The position numbers and the translations under genes were made by a program. From positions 248,001-312,000 of the forward strand of contig NZ_JABWDU010000005.1 of the NCBI RefSeq assembly GCF_013371465.1: a stretch of 64,000 nt of DNA, given 5' to 3'. Numbering within the stretch: the first letter of the stretch is position 1; every line of letters starts with the position of its first letter. Below are positions 1-17,129 of this stretch, piece after piece. The DNA comes from Ensifer oleiphilus. Its GTDB lineage: Bacteria; Pseudomonadota; Alphaproteobacteria; Rhizobiales; Rhizobiaceae. The notes below the pieces were generated by a model, which was given only the letters and a program-made list of their open reading frames with translations, was not told the origin of the DNA and ran no database searches.

Positions 1-280
1 TCGACACAGCAACCTGACCTTCCTTGTCGCCGCCGAACGTGCTGGACATGGGCACACCAATCAGAAAGACGCCCATGGCGTCGCCAGTTGCTGCGTCGTG
101 CTGCTGCTTGGACAGGCTTGAGAGAACTGCGCGCTCTTTAATCAGTTCCTGTGCGAGGCCTTGGCAGCTCTGGTTCGAATAGGCAGCCATCGGAATATCG
201 ACAGGCACGATCGCATCCGGACGCTTGGCGCACGAAGAAGCAGCCAGCACAGTGACCAGCGCGAAATAACGGACTTTCAT
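1..280 (-). CDS. Putative small lipoprotein, 3' end beyond window
   Basis: Minus-strand reading frame starting with ATG at 280 and still open at the window edge, so the C-terminus is missing. An AGGGG Shine-Dalgarno lies about 5 bases upstream of the ATG. The first 17 or so residues are a short lipoprotein-like signal (MKVRYFALVTVLAASSC) with a cysteine that could be lipidated. After it come a conserved-looking AYSNQSCQ segment and a helical stretch (LAQELIKERAVLSSLSKQQ), then a hydrophobic glycine-containing part. The arrangement resembles small envelope lipoproteins common in rhizobial genomes and prophage-like regions, but I do not recognise a function. It belongs to the integrative element that ends near 7050. 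Confidence 0.6.
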   Translation of the reverse strand, partial: MKVRYFALVTVLAASSCAKRPDAIVPVDIPMAAYSNQSCQGLAQELIKERAVLSSLSKQQHDAATGDAMGVFLIGVPMSSTFGGDKEGQVAVS

Positions 281-411
281 GAATTCCCCTCAGCTTTTAC
301 TAAAATACCCCGCACAGACGTAAGCACGCGGTTTTGCGCGCGGGAAGGGGACGATATCCAGAGTTGCTGTTTTTGGGGTTCAATCCACGGTTTTGTGACG
401 ATCGATGGTGC

Positions 412-675
412 CTATAAAATATCCCAGCCGCTCTCCCACCAACGCGCCTGATCGCCGACAGCCTGTGCACACTTCCTAGCGTCGGCACGTGCCTCTTTTT
501 TTGTTTTGTAGAAGCGCTTGCGGCCACTCTCAAGATGCTCGACTAGCCAACGTTCCTTGCGGCCGTACGCACGCGGTAAGCCAGTGGCCTGACCATCCCA
601 GACAACGAACTTACCATTCGGCTGCTCGTCGACGAGTTCAACAAACCCGGGGTCACGAAGTGATGGAGCGAACAT
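412..675 (-). CDS. Hypothetical protein (87 aa)
   Basis: An 87-residue reading frame beginning MFAPSLRDPGF and ending ARWWESGWDIL. The body is hydrophilic, with a basic patch (RKRFYKTKKEARADARK) that could contact nucleic acid; this is only composition, not a recognised domain. The frame can be extended upstream to 771, but the extension is Cys/Arg-rich and does not look like protein, so the internal ATG at 675 was chosen. The ribosome site before it is weak. It lies in the accessory element between the lipoprotein and a tiny membrane protein gene. Function unknown. Confidence 0.45.
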   Translation of the reverse strand: MFAPSLRDPGFVELVDEQPNGKFVVWDGQATGLPRAYGRKERWLVEHLESGRKRFYKTKKEARADARKCAQAVGDQARWWESGWDIL

Positions 676-772
676 TCCGATTCCGCTTGTCGCGTGAACG
701 TGGCGGCAAGCTGCCCCACGGTCGAGAAAGGCGCAACCGCGACTTTGGAGGGGTAATATCGGTAGCCGCACA

Positions 773-922
773 TCATCTTAACAGCGGCACAAACGTCGGC
801 GCTGTCCACGCGCCGATCGCAACCAACCCCAACACAAACGCGAGCACGACAGCAAGCCGGCCGGACGCGGATGCCTCGAACAGCCTCCCGAGCTTGAACA
901 TCAGTTTGTCAGGGTGGTTCAT
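773..922 (-). CDS. Tiny single-pass membrane protein (49 aa)
   Basis: A 49-codon frame on the minus strand, ATG at 922 and TGA at 773-775. A good AAAGGA Shine-Dalgarno sits about 6 bases before the ATG, which is the main argument that it is translated. Residues 1-20 are amphipathic (MNHPDKLMFKLGRLFE) and residues 22-40 are a clear hydrophobic helix (GRLAVVLAFVLGLVAIGAW), followed by a short tail. The stop overlaps a further ATG (TGATG) whose frame does not look coding. Its size and single helix would fit a holin-like or regulatory micro-protein carried by the element, but nothing identifies it. Confidence 0.45.
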   Translation of the reverse strand: MNHPDKLMFKLGRLFEASASGRLAVVLAFVLGLVAIGAWTAPTFVPLLR

Positions 923-1032
923 CGACGGTCCTTTCACCAATGGAATTGATGTGGAATCGCCCTGCGGTATGCGCCTCTGCGGGTCAAGTGCTGCTAAGGG
1001 GGATCAGCGCCGGAGCTGAGCCCCTCGGCACA

Positions 1033-1554
1033 TCACCGCTTTTTCTCTAACTCCTCCATCGCTCTCATCCTCGCCAGTCGAGCCTCACGCTTCTTGCGCA
1101 TCGTCTCTTTCCGCTCAGGTGTCCAATACGCAGGATCCTTCATCTTGTGGCTGATGCGCTTGGATTTCGGGAGATCGGGCGGCGGGACGGGTTCATACTG
1201 AGGCGGTGCAGCGGGGATCACGGCACCTTTCCATGTTCTGTGGAAATCCTCGCGATAAATCGCGCGGACCGTAAGGTCCAATTCACAGAAGTGATCTTCA
1301 TGAAACTGATCAACGACCAAGACCCAGAAGCACCCGTCGTCTCCTCCATTGTCGACGAGGCGCAGGTCTGCCAGGTAGCGTTGCTCGACTTGATAAACGC
1401 CGAGTCCTTCATCGTCTAAATGGAGTGTGAGGCGGTCCCCGATCGACGGAACGACGTTCTTGAGGTGCCGAAGCGACAGACGGTCGTGGTCGAAGTACCC
1501 ATCTCCGCTTCTCATCAGAACGACAATTTCATCACGCACTGTTTCGTCGACCAT
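1033..1554 (-). CDS. Hypothetical protein (173 aa) behind the large recombinase
   Basis: The frame begins MVDETVRDEIVVLMRSGDG at ATG 1554, two bases after the stop of the upstream recombinase gene, so the two are almost certainly co-transcribed. A TTG at 1572 would overlap that gene by 13 bases and is a possible alternative start. Residues 1-100 look globular, with Trp/Phe-rich strands (CFWVLVVDQFHEDHFCELD). The C-terminal third has a proline-rich linker (PPQYEPVPPPDLPKSKR) and a highly charged helix ending EARLARMRAMEELEKKR. No domain is recognised. Its fixed position behind a recombinase suggests, but does not prove, an accessory role in recombination. Confidence 0.65.
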   Translation of the reverse strand: MVDETVRDEIVVLMRSGDGYFDHDRLSLRHLKNVVPSIGDRLTLHLDDEGLGVYQVEQRYLADLRLVDNGGDDGCFWVLVVDQFHEDHFCELDLTVRAIYREDFHRTWKGAVIPAAPPQYEPVPPPDLPKSKRISHKMKDPAYWTPERKETMRKKREARLARMRAMEELEKKR

Positions 1555-1556
1555 CC

Positions 1557-3563
1557 TTAAGCCGCCATCCAAACCTGGTTCAGAATCCGCGCCGCCAGGG
1601 CGGCCTTATCCTCCGGCAGGAACCTGCCGTAATGGCTGCGGATCATCTCTGGAGTGTCTTGGATCGCGTAGCTCGCCTGCTCGTAGGAACCGGTCTTCTT
1701 CAAGATGTGGGTGGCCAGGACGTCGCGCACGTTATGGGGCCCATGAGGCAGCAAGCCCTTGATTGCTCCACGGCCGGTATATGGATTGTAGATGCCGTAA
1801 CGCTGAATGGTGAGACGCCAGACTTCGTAAAACGATGAACTGTCATATGCCGCGTCTTTGGTGTTCGACTTCGTCGTCTTGACGAAGAAGGTTCCCGAAT
1901 CTTTGATCTCACCAATGAGCGCTGCTCTGTGTCGGCTCACGTAGGCGTCGATGTAATGGTAGAGGTCCAGGAGGTCGGGCAACACCAGGCGGAATGGCTT
2001 CTGACCGAAAAACGATGAGCTTGCGTTTTTGAACGCGTTGGCGGGGATCAACACTTCCCAGCCGTTCTCTCGATCGCTCCAACGTAGCTCACCGCATTTC
2101 AAATCCTCTAAGCGGCGTTCGGTGGTTGGAAGTCGGCCTCGAGGACATACGAGCATTTGCCGCAGATTTTTCTGCCTGAGACCTAGATGCAGGCCCAGCC
2201 GCAGCAGGAGGAACGACCGCACGGCTTCTGCCGCGGCTCGCGGATGCCTTTTCTCATCGGGCATCCGAGCGAGGATCTCGTCGGTGATTTTTCGGTACTC
2301 CGAGAGCGGGCTATCGGTTTCAAGCACACACATGATCGGTTCGAACGGATCGCGATGGACCCGCGCGACGCGTTGAATTTCTTTCAAGCGGTTGGTGAGG
2401 TGACGATAGAAATTGTCGCAGTAGCCATGCCAATCACTGGACGCAGCCGTGGTTTCGGATTCGGAGATAAGCCCTGGTACGGGGCGAACCCGCATAAGCA
2501 ACTCGGGGTGCTGCCGAAGCCAGCCCGTCTCCTTGCGCGTCAGGGCAAGAGCGATGGACAGCATGTTCACTTCCCAGGTCGTATAAAACCCTCGGCGACG
2601 CTCGCGCCAGCGCAGGTACCAATCCCAAACGCCAGGAAACGCGAGCAGGCCGAATGTCAGCCGCTCAAAAGGAAGGCCGTAGCCCCGCACACCCTCGTCC
2701 GGCGATGCAGAGAGGGCGCCGAACATCAATCCGAGGTGTTCGATCTTTTGCGCAGCAGTCTCCTCGCCCCAAACGCCATTTCGCTGGAAACCCAAATCAG
2801 TGAGCGTGGTCGTCTTGAACCGGACAAGACTTTCCATCTCGGCCGCCAAGCTTGCGGGTGCATCGAGGCTACCCGAAAGAAGGTCAGGGTCGACGGTGTT
2901 CGGGTCCTCGTCTTCGATATCCCAAACCGGTGAAACCGAACGGCCGGTCAGGGCAGGGAACCGAATCGCATAGCGCTGCTTAATCGCTGCCGCTTGGAAG
3001 CGGCGGTATTCCGTCGTGCCGCTGATGATGACGCGCCGGACCCACTCGATGATTTCCTCTCGCTTCTCAAAAGGAAGAGAGTTGAAGTCGTCGGGCAGGT
3101 GCCAAGCCATCCGACGGCGTTCGGCATCCCCAATTTCGTCACCGACATCGTGGCCCTTAGTCGCACGCATAGGGTTAGGCAGCTTGCTCTTGAAGTAGCC
3201 CGCAGGCAGACGATACCGGCGCTCTATTCGCCCGAGTATCTCCAGGCTCTGGACGCTTCTCGGTGGCTTTTCACCGTTGAACCAGACGACGATCGTTTTG
3301 CGATTGAATGTTTCGCCTGGGCGGATGATAGCGCGATGCAGGTACCAGCACGTGTCGCCGTGGCGGCGCATATGAAGCTGCAGCGCTTCGGCGAACGTTG
3401 AGGGATCATCCCAATCGTCGAACAGAGGTTCTGGGAATTCGACAATCGGCCGCGGCTTCTGCCCGCGCTTCTGTCGGGCGTCTGCGGATTCAGTTAGAGC
3501 TTCGGCATGCGCCTTTGCGGCGGAGCGTTTTGGCTTGGGCTTCTGGGTCGTCTGTTTCGTCAC
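1557..3563 (-). CDS. Large tyrosine recombinase/integrase-like protein (668 aa)
   Basis: Starts at GTG 3563 and is about 1.5 times the length of ordinary phage integrases. The C-terminal catalytic fold is visible: an arginine-box region (LRLGLHLGLRQKNLRQM), then HNVRD as the HxxR motif, and SHYGRF with the likely nucleophilic tyrosine close to the C-terminus. Near residues 55-125 is a segment (TFAEALQLHMRRHGD through RRYRLPAGYF) that reads like a helix-turn-helix module, and the middle 300 residues are not assignable to a known domain by eye. Family knowledge says such proteins cut and rejoin DNA through a 3'-phosphotyrosine. It is on the opposite strand from the second integrase at 5774-6976 and is unlike it. 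Its GTG has only a weak ribosome site. Function in this element (integration, inversion, or something else) is unknown. Confidence 0.8.
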   Translation of the reverse strand: MTKQTTQKPKPKRSAAKAHAEALTESADARQKRGQKPRPIVEFPEPLFDDWDDPSTFAEALQLHMRRHGDTCWYLHRAIIRPGETFNRKTIVVWFNGEKPPRSVQSLEILGRIERRYRLPAGYFKSKLPNPMRATKGHDVGDEIGDAERRRMAWHLPDDFNSLPFEKREEIIEWVRRVIISGTTEYRRFQAAAIKQRYAIRFPALTGRSVSPVWDIEDEDPNTVDPDLLSGSLDAPASLAAEMESLVRFKTTTLTDLGFQRNGVWGEETAAQKIEHLGLMFGALSASPDEGVRGYGLPFERLTFGLLAFPGVWDWYLRWRERRRGFYTTWEVNMLSIALALTRKETGWLRQHPELLMRVRPVPGLISESETTAASSDWHGYCDNFYRHLTNRLKEIQRVARVHRDPFEPIMCVLETDSPLSEYRKITDEILARMPDEKRHPRAAAEAVRSFLLLRLGLHLGLRQKNLRQMLVCPRGRLPTTERRLEDLKCGELRWSDRENGWEVLIPANAFKNASSSFFGQKPFRLVLPDLLDLYHYIDAYVSRHRAALIGEIKDSGTFFVKTTKSNTKDAAYDSSSFYEVWRLTIQRYGIYNPYTGRGAIKGLLPHGPHNVRDVLATHILKKTGSYEQASYAIQDTPEMIRSHYGRFLPEDKAALAARILNQVWMAA

Positions 3564-3705
3564 GTGGGGCGCCTATAGCGATTCTTGGGAGGCGCGGTGC
3601 ATGATCTATCTGGCGATGTGCGTCAACAGTCGAGAGAGGCGAATTTTGACAAATTTGTAGAACAATATCAATGAGGTACTTGGTTTCTTGCTCGGCGCGG
3701 CGACG

Positions 3706-3966
3706 TCAATGCACCGATGGATCAACTTCGAAAAATGATCTGAGCCCGTCCCGCGCGACAGTCGCCAGAAACTCGTTGAAAGCTTCCTCATCGGTCGGAA
3801 ACGGCTCTTCCCAGGTCGTGAGGTCGTCATTTTCGGAGATGACTTCTAGTGACCAGCCTCCATCGGCTCCAGCCGGCCGAAAGATATCGACGAGAACGGT
3901 AATCCCATCGTCCGTGAACTCGCCCGCTAGTTCGGAGTGTTCAAGTTTAGGCTTTTTGGCCATCAT
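3706..3966 (-). CDS. Small acidic hypothetical protein
   Basis: About 86 residues, starting ATGATG at 3966/3963, with the first ATG overlapping the TGA of the upstream XRE regulator gene (ATGA), which implies translational coupling. The protein has a lysine-rich start (MAKKPKLEH), then an acidic body with many Asp/Glu (SENDDLTTWEEPFPTDEEAFNEF would exceed a short quote, so only its character is given) and an aromatic end (SFFEVDPSVH). No domain is recognised. Pairing with an autoregulated XRE repressor gene is a layout seen in phage repressor operons and in some toxin-antitoxin loci, but the protein itself does not look like a known toxin. Confidence 0.6.
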   Translation of the reverse strand: MMAKKPKLEHSELAGEFTDDGITVLVDIFRPAGADGGWSLEVISENDDLTTWEEPFPTDEEAFNEFLATVARDGLRSFFEVDPSVH

Positions 3967-4211
3967 TCAGTTCCTTGTCCAAACTTATCGCGCAGACGAA
4001 CGCCTGGGCCCCCTGACGTCGTTTCGCCGTCGGACAGGAAGATGACGTCCCGCTCAAGGACTGCCTGAAGCGCGTCAAGCGTCGACTGCTTCGCGTCGGC
4101 TCCGTTCTCTATGCGAGTGATGGTGTTGGCCGTGACGCCCGCAAGTTCAGCGAGCTCCCTCACGCCCAGGCCAACAGCAGCGCGGGCCATTTTCAGTTGA
4201 ATAGCTTTCAT
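3963..4211 (-). CDS. XRE-family transcriptional repressor
   Basis: The ATG at 4211 gives an 82-residue protein beginning MKAIQLKMARAAVGLGVREL; an upstream start at 4232 would lie inside the operator repeat and is rejected. Residues 5-60 form a classic XRE helix-turn-helix (LAELAGVTANTITRIENGAD), followed by a short β-type tail (VIFLSDGE) and a polar end. Regulators of this size are usually dimeric repressors of their own and a divergent promoter. The divergent gene at 4317 and the paired GTAC-containing repeats between them fit that. Its stop codon overlaps the start of the acidic gene at 3966. Confidence 0.85.
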   Translation of the reverse strand: MKAIQLKMARAAVGLGVRELAELAGVTANTITRIENGADAKQSTLDALQAVLERDVIFLSDGETTSGGPGVRLRDKFGQGTE

Positions 4212-4214
4212 ATT

Positions 4215-4286
4215 GGTACCCTGTACAAACACGTGTTGACACAGAACCAGAATCGGCTATTGTGTCGGTACAGTGTACAAACACAC
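4215..4286. promoter_or_regulatory. Divergent promoter region with paired operator-like repeats
   Basis: Two near-identical copies of a GTAC-N2-TGTACAAACAC motif lie at 4216-4232 and 4268-4284, 52 bases apart. The first runs into a perfect palindrome, AACACGTGTT, at 4228-4237. Between them is a plus-strand promoter candidate, TTGACA at 4236-4241 with TATTGT at 4258-4263, serving the gene at 4317. The left repeat touches the start region of the XRE gene on the minus strand. The arrangement is typical of operators for a repressor controlling two divergent transcripts; binding by the neighbouring XRE protein is inferred. Confidence 0.6.
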
Positions 4287-4316
4287 TGCTACGAAAGCAA
4301 CATGAGGAGACCAAAC

Positions 4317-4649
4317 ATGACCAACGTTCGCAGATTAAGACCGATGCCGGCGATCGCCGTCGAACACGATGAGGGGAAAAGATTAAGACAGGCCGGCGGC
4401 GAGGCCGGATTAAGCAAAAAGGTGAAGGGCGCCGATGACGGCCGCCCGCACCATCCCTGGCGGAGTGAAGTATACGATCTGCAAATGATGGCCAAGATCG
4501 CAGTCACGCTCGTTGATGAAGTCTTCCGGAACATCCTAGCGATGGAAGATCTTCACGAGACCCAGTTCCGCGACCAGCTTGGGTTTGACGAGCTTTGTTT
4601 CCAGGTTCACGCCATGAGGAACGCTGCAGAAGCCCTGCAGGCCAACTAG
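4317..4649 (+). CDS. Hypothetical protein (110 aa)
   Basis: Begins MTNVRRLRPMPAIAVEHDEG at ATG 4317, preceded by a strong GAGGAGA ribosome site; a longer upstream extension would cross the operator region and is rejected. The N-terminal half is basic and probably disordered. The C-terminal half (about residues 55-105) is a helical segment, DLQMMAKIAVTLVDEVFRNI and following, ending AMRNAAEALQAN. It is the first gene transcribed away from the XRE regulator at 3963-4211, the place where early or regulatory phage-like genes often sit. I do not recognise a family. Confidence 0.6.
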   Translation: MTNVRRLRPMPAIAVEHDEGKRLRQAGGEAGLSKKVKGADDGRPHHPWRSEVYDLQMMAKIAVTLVDEVFRNILAMEDLHETQFRDQLGFDELCFQVHAMRNAAEALQAN

Positions 4650-4674
4650 TTTCCGGCCGTACCTCCGGCCCTTT

Positions 4675-4708
4675 GCCCCTGAGCGCCACTAGGCGACGGG
4701 GCCTTTTA
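4675..4708 (+). terminator. Probable intrinsic terminator
   Basis: About 25 bases after the stop of the 110-aa gene, GCCCC and GGGGC arms enclose a second GC-rich helix (CGCC/GGCG around ACTA), and four T follow. The stem is imperfect in the middle, so it is a moderate candidate. Confidence 0.45.
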
Positions 4709-4852
4709 TCAAGACCCCCGCGGGGGCGATTGCCGCGTGAACCGGCGATCGGGCGGGCGGTCGCGTGTCACAGGCGCGGCCGCTCGCTACCTAATACCAG
4801 TGGCCAGCGCGATCACCACCTGCGCCAACACAAGCAGCGCGCTGGCCGGTCT

Positions 4853-5125
4853 CTACCGATTCTTCTGCTTGATGCCGGTCGGAACGTATTGGCGGGGTGG
4901 GAATTCTCGAAATTCCACCCCCCTTTCCGTGAAGTTGATGCCGGCGCTAGCCAGTTCATTCATGATCACGAAGAGCGACGCTTCGTGCGGATCGCGCTTA
5001 TCGCCTTCAAGGTCGGCGATCGTCGAGCGGCTGACGTTCGCACCTTCTGCCAGATAACCTTGCGACCATCCTAGGAGGGCGCGGGCTGCGCGGACCTGTG
5101 CCGCAAGAAGAGACCCATCAGACAT
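4853..5125 (-). CDS. XRE-family transcriptional regulator (90 aa)
   Basis: ATG at 5125 starts MSDGSLLAAQVRAARALLGW; a longer in-frame extension to 5257 would run through the promoter/operator and is unlikely. Residues 8-60 hold an XRE helix-turn-helix (WSQGYLAEGANVSRSTIADL) and the rest (SAGINFTERGVEFREFPPR) is the short C-terminal β-segment common in small alphaproteobacterial XRE proteins. It is divergent from the operon at 5239 and separated by a region with a strong promoter overlapped by an inverted repeat, so it probably represses that operon, which contains the integrase. It differs in sequence from the other XRE protein at 3963-4211. Confidence 0.85.
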   Translation of the reverse strand: MSDGSLLAAQVRAARALLGWSQGYLAEGANVSRSTIADLEGDKRDPHEASLFVIMNELASAGINFTERGVEFREFPPRQYVPTGIKQKNR

Positions 5126-5149
5126 TTGGACCCATTTCAGACATTTTGC

Positions 5150-5180
5150 TTGACTTATTTGTAAAGTTATCCTACAAAAT
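5150..5180 (+). promoter_or_regulatory. Promoter with overlapping operator for the integrase cassette
   Basis: TTGACT at 5150-5155 and TACAAA at 5173-5178 with a 17-base spacer form a plausible sigma-70 promoter reading toward 5239. ATTTGTA (5157-5163) and TACAAAAT (5173-5180) form an inverted repeat lying between and over these elements, the expected place for a repressor site. The XRE gene at 4853-5125 is the obvious candidate binder. Confidence 0.5.
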
Positions 5181-5238
5181 GACTGATACAGGACGTTTGG
5201 TTTGATGTCTAGGCCTACCAACACGAAGAGGAGAATAC

Positions 5239-5523
5239 ATGACCGATATCCAGACACCGAAATTGCCCCCCGAAGCCGCTACCGCCAATAACGATGAGGC
5301 GCTTGTTGCCTCCATTCTCAAGCAGCAGTTTGATACTCTACGGCCGCTTCTGACCGACCTGTGCGATCAGAAGGTGAACCTCAAAAACATGAAAGAGGAA
5401 GAGTACACCTTCACGTTCACCGCCGAGGAGGGCGAAGCATTGGTGCACGGCCTAGTACGGGCAATCGACGCGCTCGAGACAATGAGCATCCGCGAACAAA
5501 GCCGAGTCTTTGTGGTCGCCTGA
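5239..5523 (+). CDS. Hypothetical protein (94 aa), first gene of integrase cassette
   Basis: ATG 5239 follows a good AGAGGAGA ribosome site. The sequence starts MTDIQTPKLPPEAATANNDE, and residues 22-90 are predicted by eye to be mostly helical (LVASILKQQFDTLRPLLTDL; GEALVHGLVRAIDALETM). It is acidic with no signal peptide. Its stop overlaps the next start as TGATG. Nothing in it points to a known family; position suggests an element regulatory or accessory gene co-expressed with the integrase. Confidence 0.65.
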   Translation: MTDIQTPKLPPEAATANNDEALVASILKQQFDTLRPLLTDLCDQKVNLKNMKEEEYTFTFTAEEGEALVHGLVRAIDALETMSIREQSRVFVVA

Positions 5524-5777
5524 TGCGCACCGCCGCCAACGACAACTCGCCTCTGTATCTTTCTGAGGCCTCTATAGCCGCTCGCGTTCTAGGCCCGAAA
5601 TCCAAGACCCAATGGGCGGCCCTTGCCGCAGTTTGGGAGAAAGATGGGTTGCCACGCATCGATCCGATGACGGGTTGCCGCTACTGGCCGGCCGTTCGTG
5701 AGTTTCTCGATCGGCGCCACGGCTTGGGGCGGCGCTTTCTTCCAACTGCCGCCGACGGAGTGGAGAACTGGAATTGA
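5523..5777 (+). CDS. Small putative DNA-binding protein, excisionase-like by position
   Basis: 84 residues starting MRTAANDNSPLYLSEASIAA at the ATG that overlaps the previous stop (TGATG). The middle contains a segment resembling a winged-helix or MerR-like recognition region (LSEASIAARVLGPKSKTQWA, then WEKDGLPRIDPMTGCRYW and AVREFLDRR): choose a helix, then a short basic wing, then a helix. Proteins of this size directly before a tyrosine integrase are often recombination directionality factors. Its own stop overlaps the integrase start (TTGA). The excisionase role is inference from context and shape only. Confidence 0.6.
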   Translation: MRTAANDNSPLYLSEASIAARVLGPKSKTQWAALAAVWEKDGLPRIDPMTGCRYWPAVREFLDRRHGLGRRFLPTAADGVENWN

Positions 5778-6976
5778 CAGACGCACCTGGTCTCAAGCGC
5801 AAAACCAATAAAGACGGGACAGTCCGAGAATACTGGATGGCTCGTGCCGACTTGGCAAAGCGTGGATATCGACCTTCGAGCATCCGGCTTCACTACCCAG
5901 ACACGCCCGAAGGTCGACTGCAACTTGCGTCGCGATGTCAGATACTGCAGGCGGAGATGCTCGCGTGGGCGGCCAACGGTGGTGCTTCGGCGCCAGGCTA
6001 CGACGGTACAATTAGGAGTGTCTCCAGGCTCTTCCAAGTCAATGAAGACTCGCCACTTCAGACGATGAAGTGGAACAGCCGCATCAACTTCGTGAAGTCG
6101 CTCACGATCATTGAAGCAACCGTTGGGTCGCGGCAAATCGGAAACCTTCTTGGTCCGGATTTCAAGCGATGGCACGCGTCTTGGGGATCTCCAAAGTCGG
6201 ATAATAGAGCTCCACGGCCATGGCGTGCGAAACACACTATGGACGCCCTACGGCAGATCATCGGTTATGGGGTAACGCTCGGGTACGAGGATTGCGTGCG
6301 TGCGGACGTCATCCTGTCGAAGATCCGGTTCAAGACACCTCCTGCACGAGAATCCATTCTGACCGACGAGCATGTCGCGGCTGTCCGCGCCAAAGCTCAC
6401 GAATTGGGGTGGCACTCGATCGCTCTTGCGACCGCGCTGCAGTTCTCGCTCACGATGCGTCAGAAGGACGTAATCGGTGAGTGGGAGCCAATAAGCTCTG
6501 TAGAAGGGGGCATTCGCCATAAAGACACGATCTGGGTCAACGGCCTGCTTTGGACTGACATCGACGAAGATTTTGTGCTCAGGAAGAAGCATGTGAAAAC
6601 CGGCTTCAAAGTTCAGCACGACCTAAAACTACATCCCGCGGTCCTTGAAGAGATCGCGGCTGTTCCGGCAGAGCGTCGCGTTGGTCCGATGATTATCGCC
6701 GAGACGACCGGTGAACCTTACAAGCATCGAAACTTTACACAACGTTGGAGGAACATCGCCAATAAAGCCGGCGTGCCCACGGCCGTTTGGAACATGGACG
6801 CTCGAGCGGGCGCCATTACCGAGGCATACGATTTGGGCGCGGCGGAAACAGACGTCATGAAGTCAGCGGGCCACAAGAACCGACAAACGAGCGCGCGGTA
6901 TAACCGAGGCACACTTGAGCAGACGAGCCGCGTGGCCAAGATGCGCATGACGAAACGTAGCGAGAACACAGAGTAG
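5774..6976 (+). CDS. Site-specific tyrosine integrase (400 aa)
   Basis: Starts with TTG at 5774, overlapping the previous stop, with GGAG 8-10 bases upstream. The N-terminal 180 residues should be arm- and core-binding domains. The catalytic half shows an arginine box (LTMRQKDVIGEW), the conserved ARAGAITEA region corresponding to box II, and AGHKNRQTSARYNRG with the likely nucleophile Tyr. In place of the usual H-x-x-R the sequence reads M-D-A-R, a variation I recall from rhizobial integrases. Its 3' end lies about 40 bases from the radC boundary, the normal place of an integrase next to its attachment site. It is the best candidate for the enzyme that inserted this element. Confidence 0.88.
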   Translation: MTDAPGLKRKTNKDGTVREYWMARADLAKRGYRPSSIRLHYPDTPEGRLQLASRCQILQAEMLAWAANGGASAPGYDGTIRSVSRLFQVNEDSPLQTMKWNSRINFVKSLTIIEATVGSRQIGNLLGPDFKRWHASWGSPKSDNRAPRPWRAKHTMDALRQIIGYGVTLGYEDCVRADVILSKIRFKTPPARESILTDEHVAAVRAKAHELGWHSIALATALQFSLTMRQKDVIGEWEPISSVEGGIRHKDTIWVNGLLWTDIDEDFVLRKKHVKTGFKVQHDLKLHPAVLEEIAAVPAERRVGPMIIAETTGEPYKHRNFTQRWRNIANKAGVPTAVWNMDARAGAITEAYDLGAAETDVMKSAGHKNRQTSARYNRGTLEQTSRVAKMRMTKRSENTE

Positions 6977-7027
6977 GGGACGTCGGAGGGACGTTTGGGG
7001 GACGTTTCAGCTAATCAGTTGAAACGT
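6977..7027. repeat. Putative attachment-site arm repeats and inverted repeat
   Basis: GGGACGT occurs three times at 6977, 6988 and 6999, exactly 11 bases apart (the last two extended to GGGACGTTT). Overlapping the third copy, ACGTTTCA (7002-7009) is repeated as its exact reverse complement TGAAACGT (7020-7027) across 10 bases. The array starts immediately after the integrase stop and ends inside the foreign tail of radC. Helically phased short repeats beside an integrase gene match arm-type binding sites of an att region; that reading is inferred. Confidence 0.55.
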
Positions 7028-7551
7028 AAGCGAAAAAGGAAAGGTGAAAACAGGATGCGAAACTGTTCTTTGGTCTCGTATGCCATCGCCGCATGGCAAT
7101 ACTCGATAACGGCCGACCAGGACGACAGGATATGCTTCTTGCGCAGGTCACTTTTCAGCGTCCGGTGGCCGATCGTTGAGACGAGCTTCAGGTCGAGCGC
7201 TACCGCTTCGCCGACACCCTTGACTTCCTGCAGCAGTGCGAGAGGCGCGCCGAACACGCCGGCGAGCGTGCCGAAACGGGCAAGCAACGCCTTGGCGATC
7301 GGCTTGGTGTCCTTTCGCGGGATCAGCCGAAACAGGAGCATTTCGAGGATTTCATAGTCGGCAAGCGCGGTATCGCCGTGCTCGCGATACCGGGTGCGTA
7401 ACCGGTCGCGGTGGCCAAGGTAATGCGCCTCCGCCGTCACAGAATCCGTGTCGGGTAAAGATGGAGCCTGCGGCAGGAGATCTGCAAAAAACGATCGTTC
7501 ATCCGCCGGCTGCGTCGCATCGCCTGCGGATGAACGGGCGTTTTTCTTCAT
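7015..7551 (-). pseudogene. radC: radC, truncated by element insertion
   Basis: Residues 1 to about 168 match RadC: a variable N-terminus, then the helix-hairpin-helix part ([56 protein letters not shown]) and the conserved [12 protein letters not shown]. At that point normal RadC continues into the JAMM/MPN domain with its HNHPSGD metal motif. Here it switches to a short unrelated tail ([10 protein letters not shown]) and stops at 7015. About 100 residues including all putative catalytic residues are missing. The ATG overlaps the map stop (ATGA), so transcription from map continues into it. The lost 3' portion should lie beyond position 1 at the other end of the element. Confidence 0.85.
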
Positions 7552-8387
7552 GCGGCGCCCATGGCGGCCATATCAGGCTTGAAGAGCCCGGCCGGTGAGA
7601 GGGTAAAGATCTCGCAGCCGTCCGCCGTCACGCCAACCGTATGTTCGTATTGCGCCGAGAGAGACCGGTCGCGAGTGACCGCCGTCCAACCATCGGCGAG
7701 CACTTTCACATGCGGGCGACCGAGATTGATCATCGGTTCGATGGTGAAGATCATGCCTTCGCGCAGTTCTGGCCCTTCGTTGGCGCGGCCATAATGCAGG
7801 ATATTCGGTGCATCGTGGAAAAGCCGGCCGACGCCATGTCCGCAGAAGTCACGCACGACGGAGCAGCGTTCGGCTTCCGCATAGACCTGGATCGCTTCGC
7901 CAATGGCGCCGGTGCGCGCGCCGGGGCGCACGGCTGCAATGCCGCGCATCAGACACTCATGCGTCACGTCGAGAAGCCGCTCGGCGGCACGTTTGATCTC
8001 GCCGACCGGATACATGCGGCTGGAATCGCCGTGCCAACCGTCGATCACATAGGTGACGTCGATGTTGACGATATCGCCGTCGCGAAGCGGCTTGTCGTTG
8101 GGAATGCCGTGGCAGACCACGTGGTTGATCGAAGTGCAGGAGGATTTCGTATAGCCGCGGTAGTTCAGCGTTGCGGGGAGCGCGCCGTTGTCCATGCCGA
8201 ATTCGAAGACGAAGCGATCGATCTCTTCGGTTGTCACACCCGGTCGCACCCGCGACACCAGCTCGTCGAGGCAACGCGCCGTCACCTGACAGGCCTTGCG
8301 CATGCCTTCAAACCCCTCCGGCCCGTAGAGGCGGATGACGCCGGTGTTTTTGTAGGGCGAAGACCCCGCCTCGATGTAAGTCACCAT
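7548..8387 (-). CDS. map: Methionine aminopeptidase type I
   Basis: Removes the initiator methionine from nascent cytosolic proteins. The 279-residue length fits the class with a short N-terminal extension. Metal ligands are visible in order: [16 protein letters not shown] with two Asp, [11 protein letters not shown] with His, [10 protein letters not shown] with Glu, and QYEHTVGV with Glu. NHVVCHGIP contains the substrate-binding His. ATG 8387 was kept because family members begin with a similar YIEAGSSP segment, although the ribosome site is poor. It overlaps radC by four bases and is upstream of it in transcription. Confidence 0.97.
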
Positions 8388-16497: not shown

Positions 16498-16572
16498 TGG
16501 CACGCCCTAGGGGAGTCGAACCCCTCTTCCCAGAATGAAAATCTGGTGTCCTAACCGATAGACGAAGGGCGC
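16498..16572 (-). tRNA. tRNA-Glu (UUC), copy 1
   Basis: Minus-strand cloverleaf, 75 bases including encoded CCA. Acceptor GCGCCCT pairs with AGGGCGT (a terminal G-T wobble); D arm TCGTC... TTAGGAC; anticodon stem CCAGA/TCTGG with loop TTTTCAT, anticodon TTC; T arm GAGGGGTTCGACTCCCCT. Identical to the other two copies. Confidence 0.96.
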
Positions 16573-16589
16573 ACTTGCTGTGTGGGCGT

Positions 16590-16618
16590 CTTATAGTCAG
16601 CACTCTTTCCGGCTGCAA
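16590..16618 (-). promoter_or_regulatory. Promoter of tRNA-Glu copy 1
   Basis: Minus strand TTGCAG (16613-16618), 17-base spacer, TATAAG (16590-16595), which lies about 18 bases ahead of the tRNA 5' end. The same spacing and hexamers precede the other two copies. An AT-rich stretch lies immediately upstream. Confidence 0.8.
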
Positions 16619-16770
16619 GCGCTAATGTTGATATTTTCAAGGTTTTTCTGTGAAAAATGCCGGAAGAATCAAGGGCTAAGAATGCGGCGCTCATCGTCGA
16701 AGCGAAGAGGCGGGCGGTCGCCGCAACCGGGCTAAATCGGAAATAAGTGTGGTGGGGAAGTGGATCACAG

Positions 16771-16845
16771 TGGCACGCCCTAGGGGAGTCGAACCCCTCT
16801 TCCCAGAATGAAAATCTGGTGTCCTAACCGATAGACGAAGGGCGC
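16771..16845 (-). tRNA. tRNA-Glu (UUC), copy 2
   Basis: Sequence identical to the copy at 16498-16572, with encoded CCA and anticodon TTC. It begins 273 bases after copy 1. Confidence 0.96.
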
Positions 16846-16862
16846 ACTTGCTGTGTGCGCGC

Positions 16863-16891
16863 CTTATAGTCAGCGCCATTGTAGACTGCAA
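16863..16891 (-). promoter_or_regulatory. Promoter of tRNA-Glu copy 2
   Basis: Minus strand TTGCAG (16886-16891), 17-base spacer, TATAAG (16863-16868). Same architecture as copy 1. Confidence 0.8.
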
Positions 16892-17054
16892 GCGCTAATC
16901 TGGAAATTCGCGTGCTTTTCCTGTGAAAAAAATCGGAAACCCTGTGGTGCGCTTGCTGTGTCAAGGAGGGGGCTTCGACGAGCGCACATCGGGTTCTCGA
17001 CGCAAAACCCGCCGGTCTCGAACAAGGAAATCATGTAGGGGGAGAGGATCACAG

Positions 17055-17129
17055 TGGCACGCCCTAGGGGAGTCGAACCCCTCTTCCCAGAATGAAAATC
17101 TGGTGTCCTAACCGATAGACGAAGGGCGC
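17055..17129 (-). tRNA. tRNA-Glu (UUC), copy 3
   Basis: Sequence identical to the other two copies, encoded CCA, anticodon TTC, 284 bases from copy 2. It is the most upstream on the minus strand, after the M15-like gene. Confidence 0.96.

Follow-up and report, generated by a model that had tools for sequence, protein, structure and literature searches.

In the 64,000-nucleotide stretch of DNA analysed here (the window), the radC gene is broken in mid-frame, and the break very probably reflects the integration of a temperate siphovirus-type phage, 41,949 bases long from repeat to repeat, into an attB site inside radC by means of its own tyrosine integrase. In the proposed mechanism, the tyrosine integrase encoded at the end of the element would recombine attP with attB inside radC, the attB core being 19 bases that encode QFRILF and that would be duplicated at both ends of the element on integration; the two halves of radC would thereby be separated, with the phage lying between them. 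In a sister clade of elements, the same core has the opposite polarity relative to the integrase, and these elements lie in radC in the reverse direction. Judged by att repeats, ORFs and PHROG matches, window positions 1..7047 hold the right-hand part of the prophage, and the remainder extends over contig C28:213099-248000, contig positions being window positions plus 248000.

The 5′ half of radC (168 codons including the att core) occupies 7048..7551 on the minus strand, as identified by its ORF and an NCBIfam RadC match, and runs on into an element-derived end read from the sequence (7015..7047, minus strand; ten residues and a stop). The resulting ORF (7015-7551, minus strand; 178 aa) is RadC sequence up to ...EQFRILF, after which ten foreign residues are followed by the stop at 7015, exactly as the original prediction had described. 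The loss of the JAMM/MPN domain that it had also claimed is borne out by the NCBIfam RadC models, which match the N-terminal part of the truncated ORF only (NF000642 positions 1-117 of 212; TIGR00608 positions 2-123 of 218), the JAMM part being missing from the matches. The 5′ half is 94.6% identical to the intact RadC of a locus from the same genus (L198). Directly upstream of radC and overlapping it by 4 bases, the flank of the element carries an M24 metallopeptidase gene (7548..8387, minus strand; Pfam Peptidase_M24 1.2e-52), which we take to be of the methionine-aminopeptidase type. On the other side, the integrase ORF ends 38 bases from the stop of the truncated radC frame; the close adjacency predicted thus stands, with the spacing corrected from 40 bases. 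Insertion into a conserved codon block had also been proposed, and the break does lie just before the FRILF block, a placement that can be refined to about 20 positions inside PF04002, rather than at a domain boundary.

The missing 3′ half, predicted to lie at the far end of the element, was located 42 kb leftward on the contig. This second RadC piece (C28:212811-213119, minus strand) matches NF000642 positions 112-208, so that the two pieces, one covering positions 1-117 and the other 112-208, are complementary; they lie 42 kb apart on the same strand of one 361-kb contig (C28). A search of the whole 6.76-Mb genome with PF04002 gave one match only (C28:212826-213119, minus strand; profile positions 21-118 of 121) and no second RadC domain in the assembly, and a backup RadC elsewhere in the assembly or a phage-borne RadC was rejected on the grounds of this single match.

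Both breaks in radC bear the same 19-base direct repeat, AAACAGGATGCGAAACTGT, whose right copy lies at 7048..7066 and whose identical left copy lies at contig positions 213099-213117, where a repeat of the sequence around 7045-7075 had been expected. On the radC strand the core reads ACAGTTTCGCATCCTGTTT, that is, the QFRILF codons plus the last base of the preceding codon. The chance expectation of an exact 19-mer shared by stretches of 1400 and 1200 bases is about 6e-6 under equal base frequencies, and no further copy with up to four mismatches was found in contig stretch 209001-257000 (L002, L003, L004) beyond these two. When the flanks are joined with a single repeat copy, they align with the uninterrupted locus L198 (G270, same genus) over 2442 bases at 91.8% identity with 0 gaps; the alignment runs through the junction, and the joined flanks give a 263-codon radC frame of the same length as that of L198. 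Such gap-free joined flanks and the 263-codon frame are the signature of site-specific integration, and with the repeat at both breaks they substantiate the claim of site-specific insertion into radC. Precise excision would be expected to restore radC unchanged. Within the window's core, inverted arms, AACAG and CTGTT, surround nine bases, and the integrase may use these arms symmetrically; in the attB deduced for each of the five further elements having both ends, the arms are imperfect.

The interior of the element is that of a phage. PHROG scans of 20 of its proteins identified a helicase-like protein, an HNH nuclease, the small and large terminase (TerL, 1e-160), portal (3e-97), head maturation protease (5e-64), major head protein (3.2e-77), head-tail connectors, tail terminator, tape measure, tail proteins, tail fibres and endolysin, as well as the integrase. 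The head and packaging set of a siphovirus-type prophage (terminase, portal, protease and capsid) is present, along with the tape measure, connectors, tail fibres and lysis gene, and the element is bounded by the integrase and direct att repeats. Nineteen of the 20 scanned proteins are encoded on the plus strand, the exception being a 668-residue protein on the minus strand. Two helix-turn-helix proteins are encoded at 4853..5257 (minus strand; Pfam HTH_3, 2.2e-7) and 3963..4232 (minus strand; Pfam HTH_31, 4.6e-9), and no conjugation or relaxase genes were found among the prophage proteins scanned with Pfam, PHROGs and NCBIfam, which are a subset of the ORFs. By its gene content the element would therefore pass as a complete-looking temperate prophage of siphovirus type. 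In the phage collection its terminase is matched by 2274 records and its integrase by 4, all at less than 60% identity. Two compared stretches (7,203 and 8,004 bases) are 100% identical to the IMG/VR record IMGVR_UViG_2920785022_000002 (41,638 bases), by which measure this provirus, or an identical one, is already catalogued there; it extends as far as the stop codon of the integrase gene, and no part of radC was detected in it.

The 668-residue protein (1557-3563, minus strand) is without a Pfam, PHROG or NCBIfam match, a PDB search with it returned nothing useful (best E 0.11), and its structure model, at pLDDT 37, is unusable. By eye, an R (463), an HxxR (610-613) and a Y (645) in it are spaced like those of a second tyrosine recombinase, and these residues are invariant in four aligned sequences (its own and three phage relatives). 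The prophage also encodes an SRAP-family (SOS response associated peptidase) protein (C28:245812-246561, minus strand; PF02586, 3.1e-24), and its tape measure protein (C28:229885-232917, plus strand) contains an endolysin-like stretch at residues ~680-830.

The same site is occupied in other hosts. Related integrases were collected from 50 loci in genomes and 80 in viral records; six of these loci (L005, L006, L007, L008, L056 and L057) have a radC piece in the examined flank, and a seventh radC-linked locus, G047, came from the family search. These seven further radC-linked integrases are 60-85% identical to that of the window, and the N-side piece of radC breaks at the same codons in all eight cases (the seven loci and the window). 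Both radC pieces were found in G394 (L005), G396 (L007), G397 (L008, on two contigs), G047 and G400 (L057), those of G400 being cut by the record ends, and the N piece only in G395 (L006) and G399 (L056). Three other loci in the integrase clade (L055, L058 and L059) have no radC match in their records. The named hosts are Bosea thiooxidans, Bosea sp. Root483D1, "Rhizobiales bacterium AFS011725" and a Hyphomicrobiales MAG. Comparison with relatives, proposed earlier as a check, agrees with an insertion: within the genus, one of 16 genomes has the integrase at E 1e-50 and the other 15 have no match, a single full-length RadC domain is present in 13 of the 16, and in the window's genome the domain is split at this site. 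Neither of the observations named beforehand as refuting the insertion turned up. Two further members of the genus differ in other ways, G409 having two RadC pieces separated at the JAMM motif, of which the second contains stops, and G406 having the 3′ piece of radC in two copies and no match to the 5′ piece. In the same-genus genome G379, locus L201 (910-1410) holds an otherwise full-length radC with an in-frame TAG near its start, and this gene may begin further downstream. Five genomes with integrases 41-48% identical to the window's (G138, G153, G229, G324 and G390) have an intact RadC domain, and G178, with a degenerate integrase fragment (60%, residues 287-377), has one strong PF04002 match (8.0e-44).

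These relatives bear on the idea that the prophage is dead and frozen in radC, with the gene permanently lost, which we consider unlikely. The inverted relatives with both radC pieces on one contig are indeed short, at ~9.8 kb (G047), 16.5 kb (G394) and 17.8 kb (G396), and by eye G394 shows a tape-measure-like ORF and no large terminase, portal or capsid ORF, while the G396 element has a capsid gene (Pfam 2e-55). The window element, however, has head, tail, packaging, lysis and integration genes, its two att copies are identical and neither radC half contains a stop or frameshift ahead of the junction; the record of G400, an element oriented as in the window, spans 39.8 kb with radC pieces at both ends.

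The presumed agent of this integration is a putative tyrosine recombinase of 400 aa (5774..6976, plus strand) with a match to PF00589 (E 4e-5) and a PHROG integrase match (1.1e-11); the PF00589 score of 23.9 bits lies under the Pfam cut-off of 27.1, and there is no NCBIfam match. Read by eye, the protein presumably has a methionine where the box-II histidine is usual. Directly behind its gene lie three GGGACGT direct repeats 11 bases apart (6977-6983, 6988-6994 and 6999-7005, plus strand), which are candidate arm-type integrase sites. A GGGACGT/GGGACGC triple with a spacing of exactly 11 bases follows the integrase stop in all eight radC-linked loci, the third copy in G047 being GGGATGT, and the offsets of the repeats from the stop codon are equal in both orientation groups described below. 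In a repeat scan with shuffles, 13 of 131 loci carried three repeat copies 11 bases apart that agreed in at least 6 of 7 columns; the GGACG-type unit occurs in eight of these 13 (L005-L009, L056, L057 and the window's own copy, L135), and the remaining five (L043, L081, L085, L149 and L154) have more distant integrases and different repeat units, the G047 copy (L136) scoring 5 of 7 columns. At L009 (1-1300), an integrase with 56% identity across residues 98-398 is accompanied by 11-base-spaced repeats of this type and followed by a superoxide-dismutase-like ORF (named by eye), and no radC was found in the 4 kb downstream of it. Since L009 has the arm repeats and no radC was found beside it, specificity for radC may have arisen later than the arm sites, and core specificity may be able to change while arm sites stay.

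The radC-linked elements fall into two orientations. The 3′ end of the integrase gene adjoins the 5′ half of radC, which lies on the opposite strand, in one group (the window, G395, G399 and G400), and the 3′ half, which lies on the same strand, in the other (G047, G394, G396 and G397). Because tail-like genes (recognized by eye in the ORF list) lie on the integrase strand in G394 and G396, the whole element seems to be inverted there, and not the integrase alone. A maximum-likelihood tree was built from 70 of the 143 integrases that passed, omitting 17 loci with too short an integrase match, the viral loci L063-L134 and the own-genome copy L135. In it, eleven radC-associated or unflanked integrases form one clade (100/99), within which those of inverted orientation form a sub-clade (100/95) with the unflanked L059, and the window-like ones a second sub-clade (100/97) with the unflanked L055 and L058; L006, which has the window orientation, branches outside both. 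The simplest reading is one reversal of insertion direction.

On the radC strand, YCGCATYCT is shared by the six elements with both ends, the two core ends differing at one base in G047, G396 and G397, and because the core is common on the radC strand, the two groups have it in opposite polarity with respect to the integrase. The direction of insertion may be set by the asymmetric centre of the core. A by-eye idea that inner core arms track the integrase in both orientation classes was not favoured by ungapped comparison, in which the best matches were 12-15 of 31 in the integrase sense versus 15-19 of 31 in the radC sense, the latter scores being raised by the shared core centre.

A second break point in radC recurs across the family. 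PF04002 was found in 380 of 394 sampled family genomes; four genomes of one genus (G006, G111, G182 and G240; 1.0-1.5 Mb genomes) were seen to have no RadC domain match. The 27 of the 394 that were re-examined had been chosen for a best PF04002 E weaker than ~1e-30. In at least 20 of the 394, PF04002 lies in two pieces that meet at profile positions ~60-78, a count that is a lower bound because a few genomes with a best E between 1e-34 and 1e-38 fell outside the re-examination; by the numbering of the window-genome match, these positions correspond to the LxHNHPSGDP metal-site motif. Among the other re-examined genomes, five have one such piece, one is cut at a contig start and one has a full-length, divergent domain. 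The N-side flanks of 16 JAMM-split genomes were compared: in 11, an integrase of 413-455 aa, always from one family, borders the break; in one there is a 102-aa fragment of such an integrase, and in four the examined stretch contains none (example JAMM-split loci are L204-L223). Three of the 11 were run against Pfam and all match PF00589, one of them under the cut-off. This integrase family has no significant BLASTP similarity to the window integrase (best E 0.13).

One broader interpretation combines these observations: a clade of integrases from alphaproteobacterial phages would have become specialised on one near-palindromic radC codon block, the core polarity would have been reversed once while integrase and arm sites stayed fixed, sister elements thereby entering one site in both directions, and the elements, including those at the JAMM hotspot, would gain from the inactivation of RadC. 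Taken as a whole, we regard this interpretation as rather improbable.

As regards the effect on the protein, the break falls at residue 163 of RadC, and PF04002 in the 3′ piece begins at profile position 21. The solved RadC domain 2qlc_A aligns from residue 148, and a low-confidence model of intact RadC (pLDDT 54) shows a helix at 145-159 and a strand at 164-169. By this model, the strand would remain in the JAMM-bearing piece, since the core encodes it on both sides, and the helix would be missing from that piece together with the N-terminal region. The product of the 5′ half in the lysogen would be 178 residues long and lack the JAMM domain, and RadC activity is probably lost, as the 3′ half is without its own start, the upstream region and part of the domain. 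In all four inverted elements, the reading frame of the 5′ half meets a stop no more than one codon beyond RIL.

RadC might instead be under a reversible switch, inactive while the phage is integrated and regained once it excises (active lysogeny), possibly with a JAMM-only product made during lysogeny, a proposal to which we assign a low probability. The precise, gap-free insertion site and the undecayed radC halves would suit it, as would the in-frame ATG, GTG or TTG that closely precedes the 3′ half in each of the six elements examined and the E, HxH, S and D of the JAMM motif, which this half keeps. The start codons, however, have no clear ribosome site before them in these six elements by eye, and an in-frame start before a stop is, by our own estimate, expected about half the time per element; moreover, the 3′ half is without the predicted helix 145-159 of the low-confidence model, which lies largely within the stretch aligned to 2qlc_A. 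A JAMM-only protein made from a start codon supplied by the element is thus at best weakly suggested. Both radC halves are conserved relative to L198, with dN/dS of about 0.03-0.04 (5′ half, last 122 codons: 0.0148/0.4419; 3′ half: 0.0089/0.2098), and such low values would fit a recent insertion but also retained function.

A rival reading, in which radC is short through an ordinary inherited frameshift or as a natural form of RadC and the integrase lies nearby by coincidence, can be dismissed with near certainty. Broken radC frames do exist, as in L201 of the same genus. Here, however, the missing half lies 42 kb away with the 19-base repeat at the exact break, the domain is full-length in 13 of 16 genomes of the genus, and in the window and seven other loci radC is interrupted at identical codons next to integrases of a single clade.

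Phage integration into radC, the reading favoured here, has counterparts in known systems. Both comK and comM are examples of mid-gene insertions in conserved genes. As with these, precise removal of the window element could repair the conserved gene that it interrupts midway, but the element is not known to undergo regulated excision. comM is also mentioned in PMC4774983. radC is itself already a published target of prophages, ICEs and transposons. Prophages in radC of Enterococcus faecalis and Bacillus subtilis are described in PMC4774983; these are likewise temperate phages with radC as the integration gene, but in Firmicutes hosts, whereas the phage of the present case comes from an alphaproteobacterium, is of siphovirus type and has its 19-base core at the codons of FRILF. 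Mesorhizobium, from a related host group, has ICEs and IMEs that use radC for attachment (PMC8627217), but they are conjugative or mobilisable, whereas the window element is a phage. The JAMM-site elements described above may belong to the same class as these Mesorhizobium elements. In staphylococci and macrococci, transposons and islands in radC are described in PMC9037201, PMC11217367 and PMC6008420, among them Tn554/Tn558/Tn559-type transposons and RIfosY in staphylococcal radC (PMC9037201, PMC11217367). Tn554-type elements and RIfosY have the same preference for radC but are transposons or an island with other end sequences, and the hotspot in CC398 is given as the 3′ end of radC, whereas the window site is at the mid-gene FRILF codons. 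No paper describing this phage was found in a literature search that was thin on subscription journals, nor one on orientation reversal at this radC site with search terms that were not directed at orientation.

The present element adds a clean alphaproteobacterial phage case to the genes interrupted in mid-frame by mobile elements, and one for which the core is defined, arm repeats are proposed and an empty site is available. Its opposite-orientation sister clade provides natural material on how a tyrosine integrase sets the polarity of insertion, and the presence of two break points in radC, whose function is unclear, raises the question of whether loss of the gene is neutral or something that mobile DNA favours. 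A modest surprise lies in the reversed sister clade and in how repeatedly radC is chosen. Elsewhere in the window, three tRNA-Glu (TTC) genes stand in a row at 16498-17129 on the minus strand, their starts ~270-285 bases apart.
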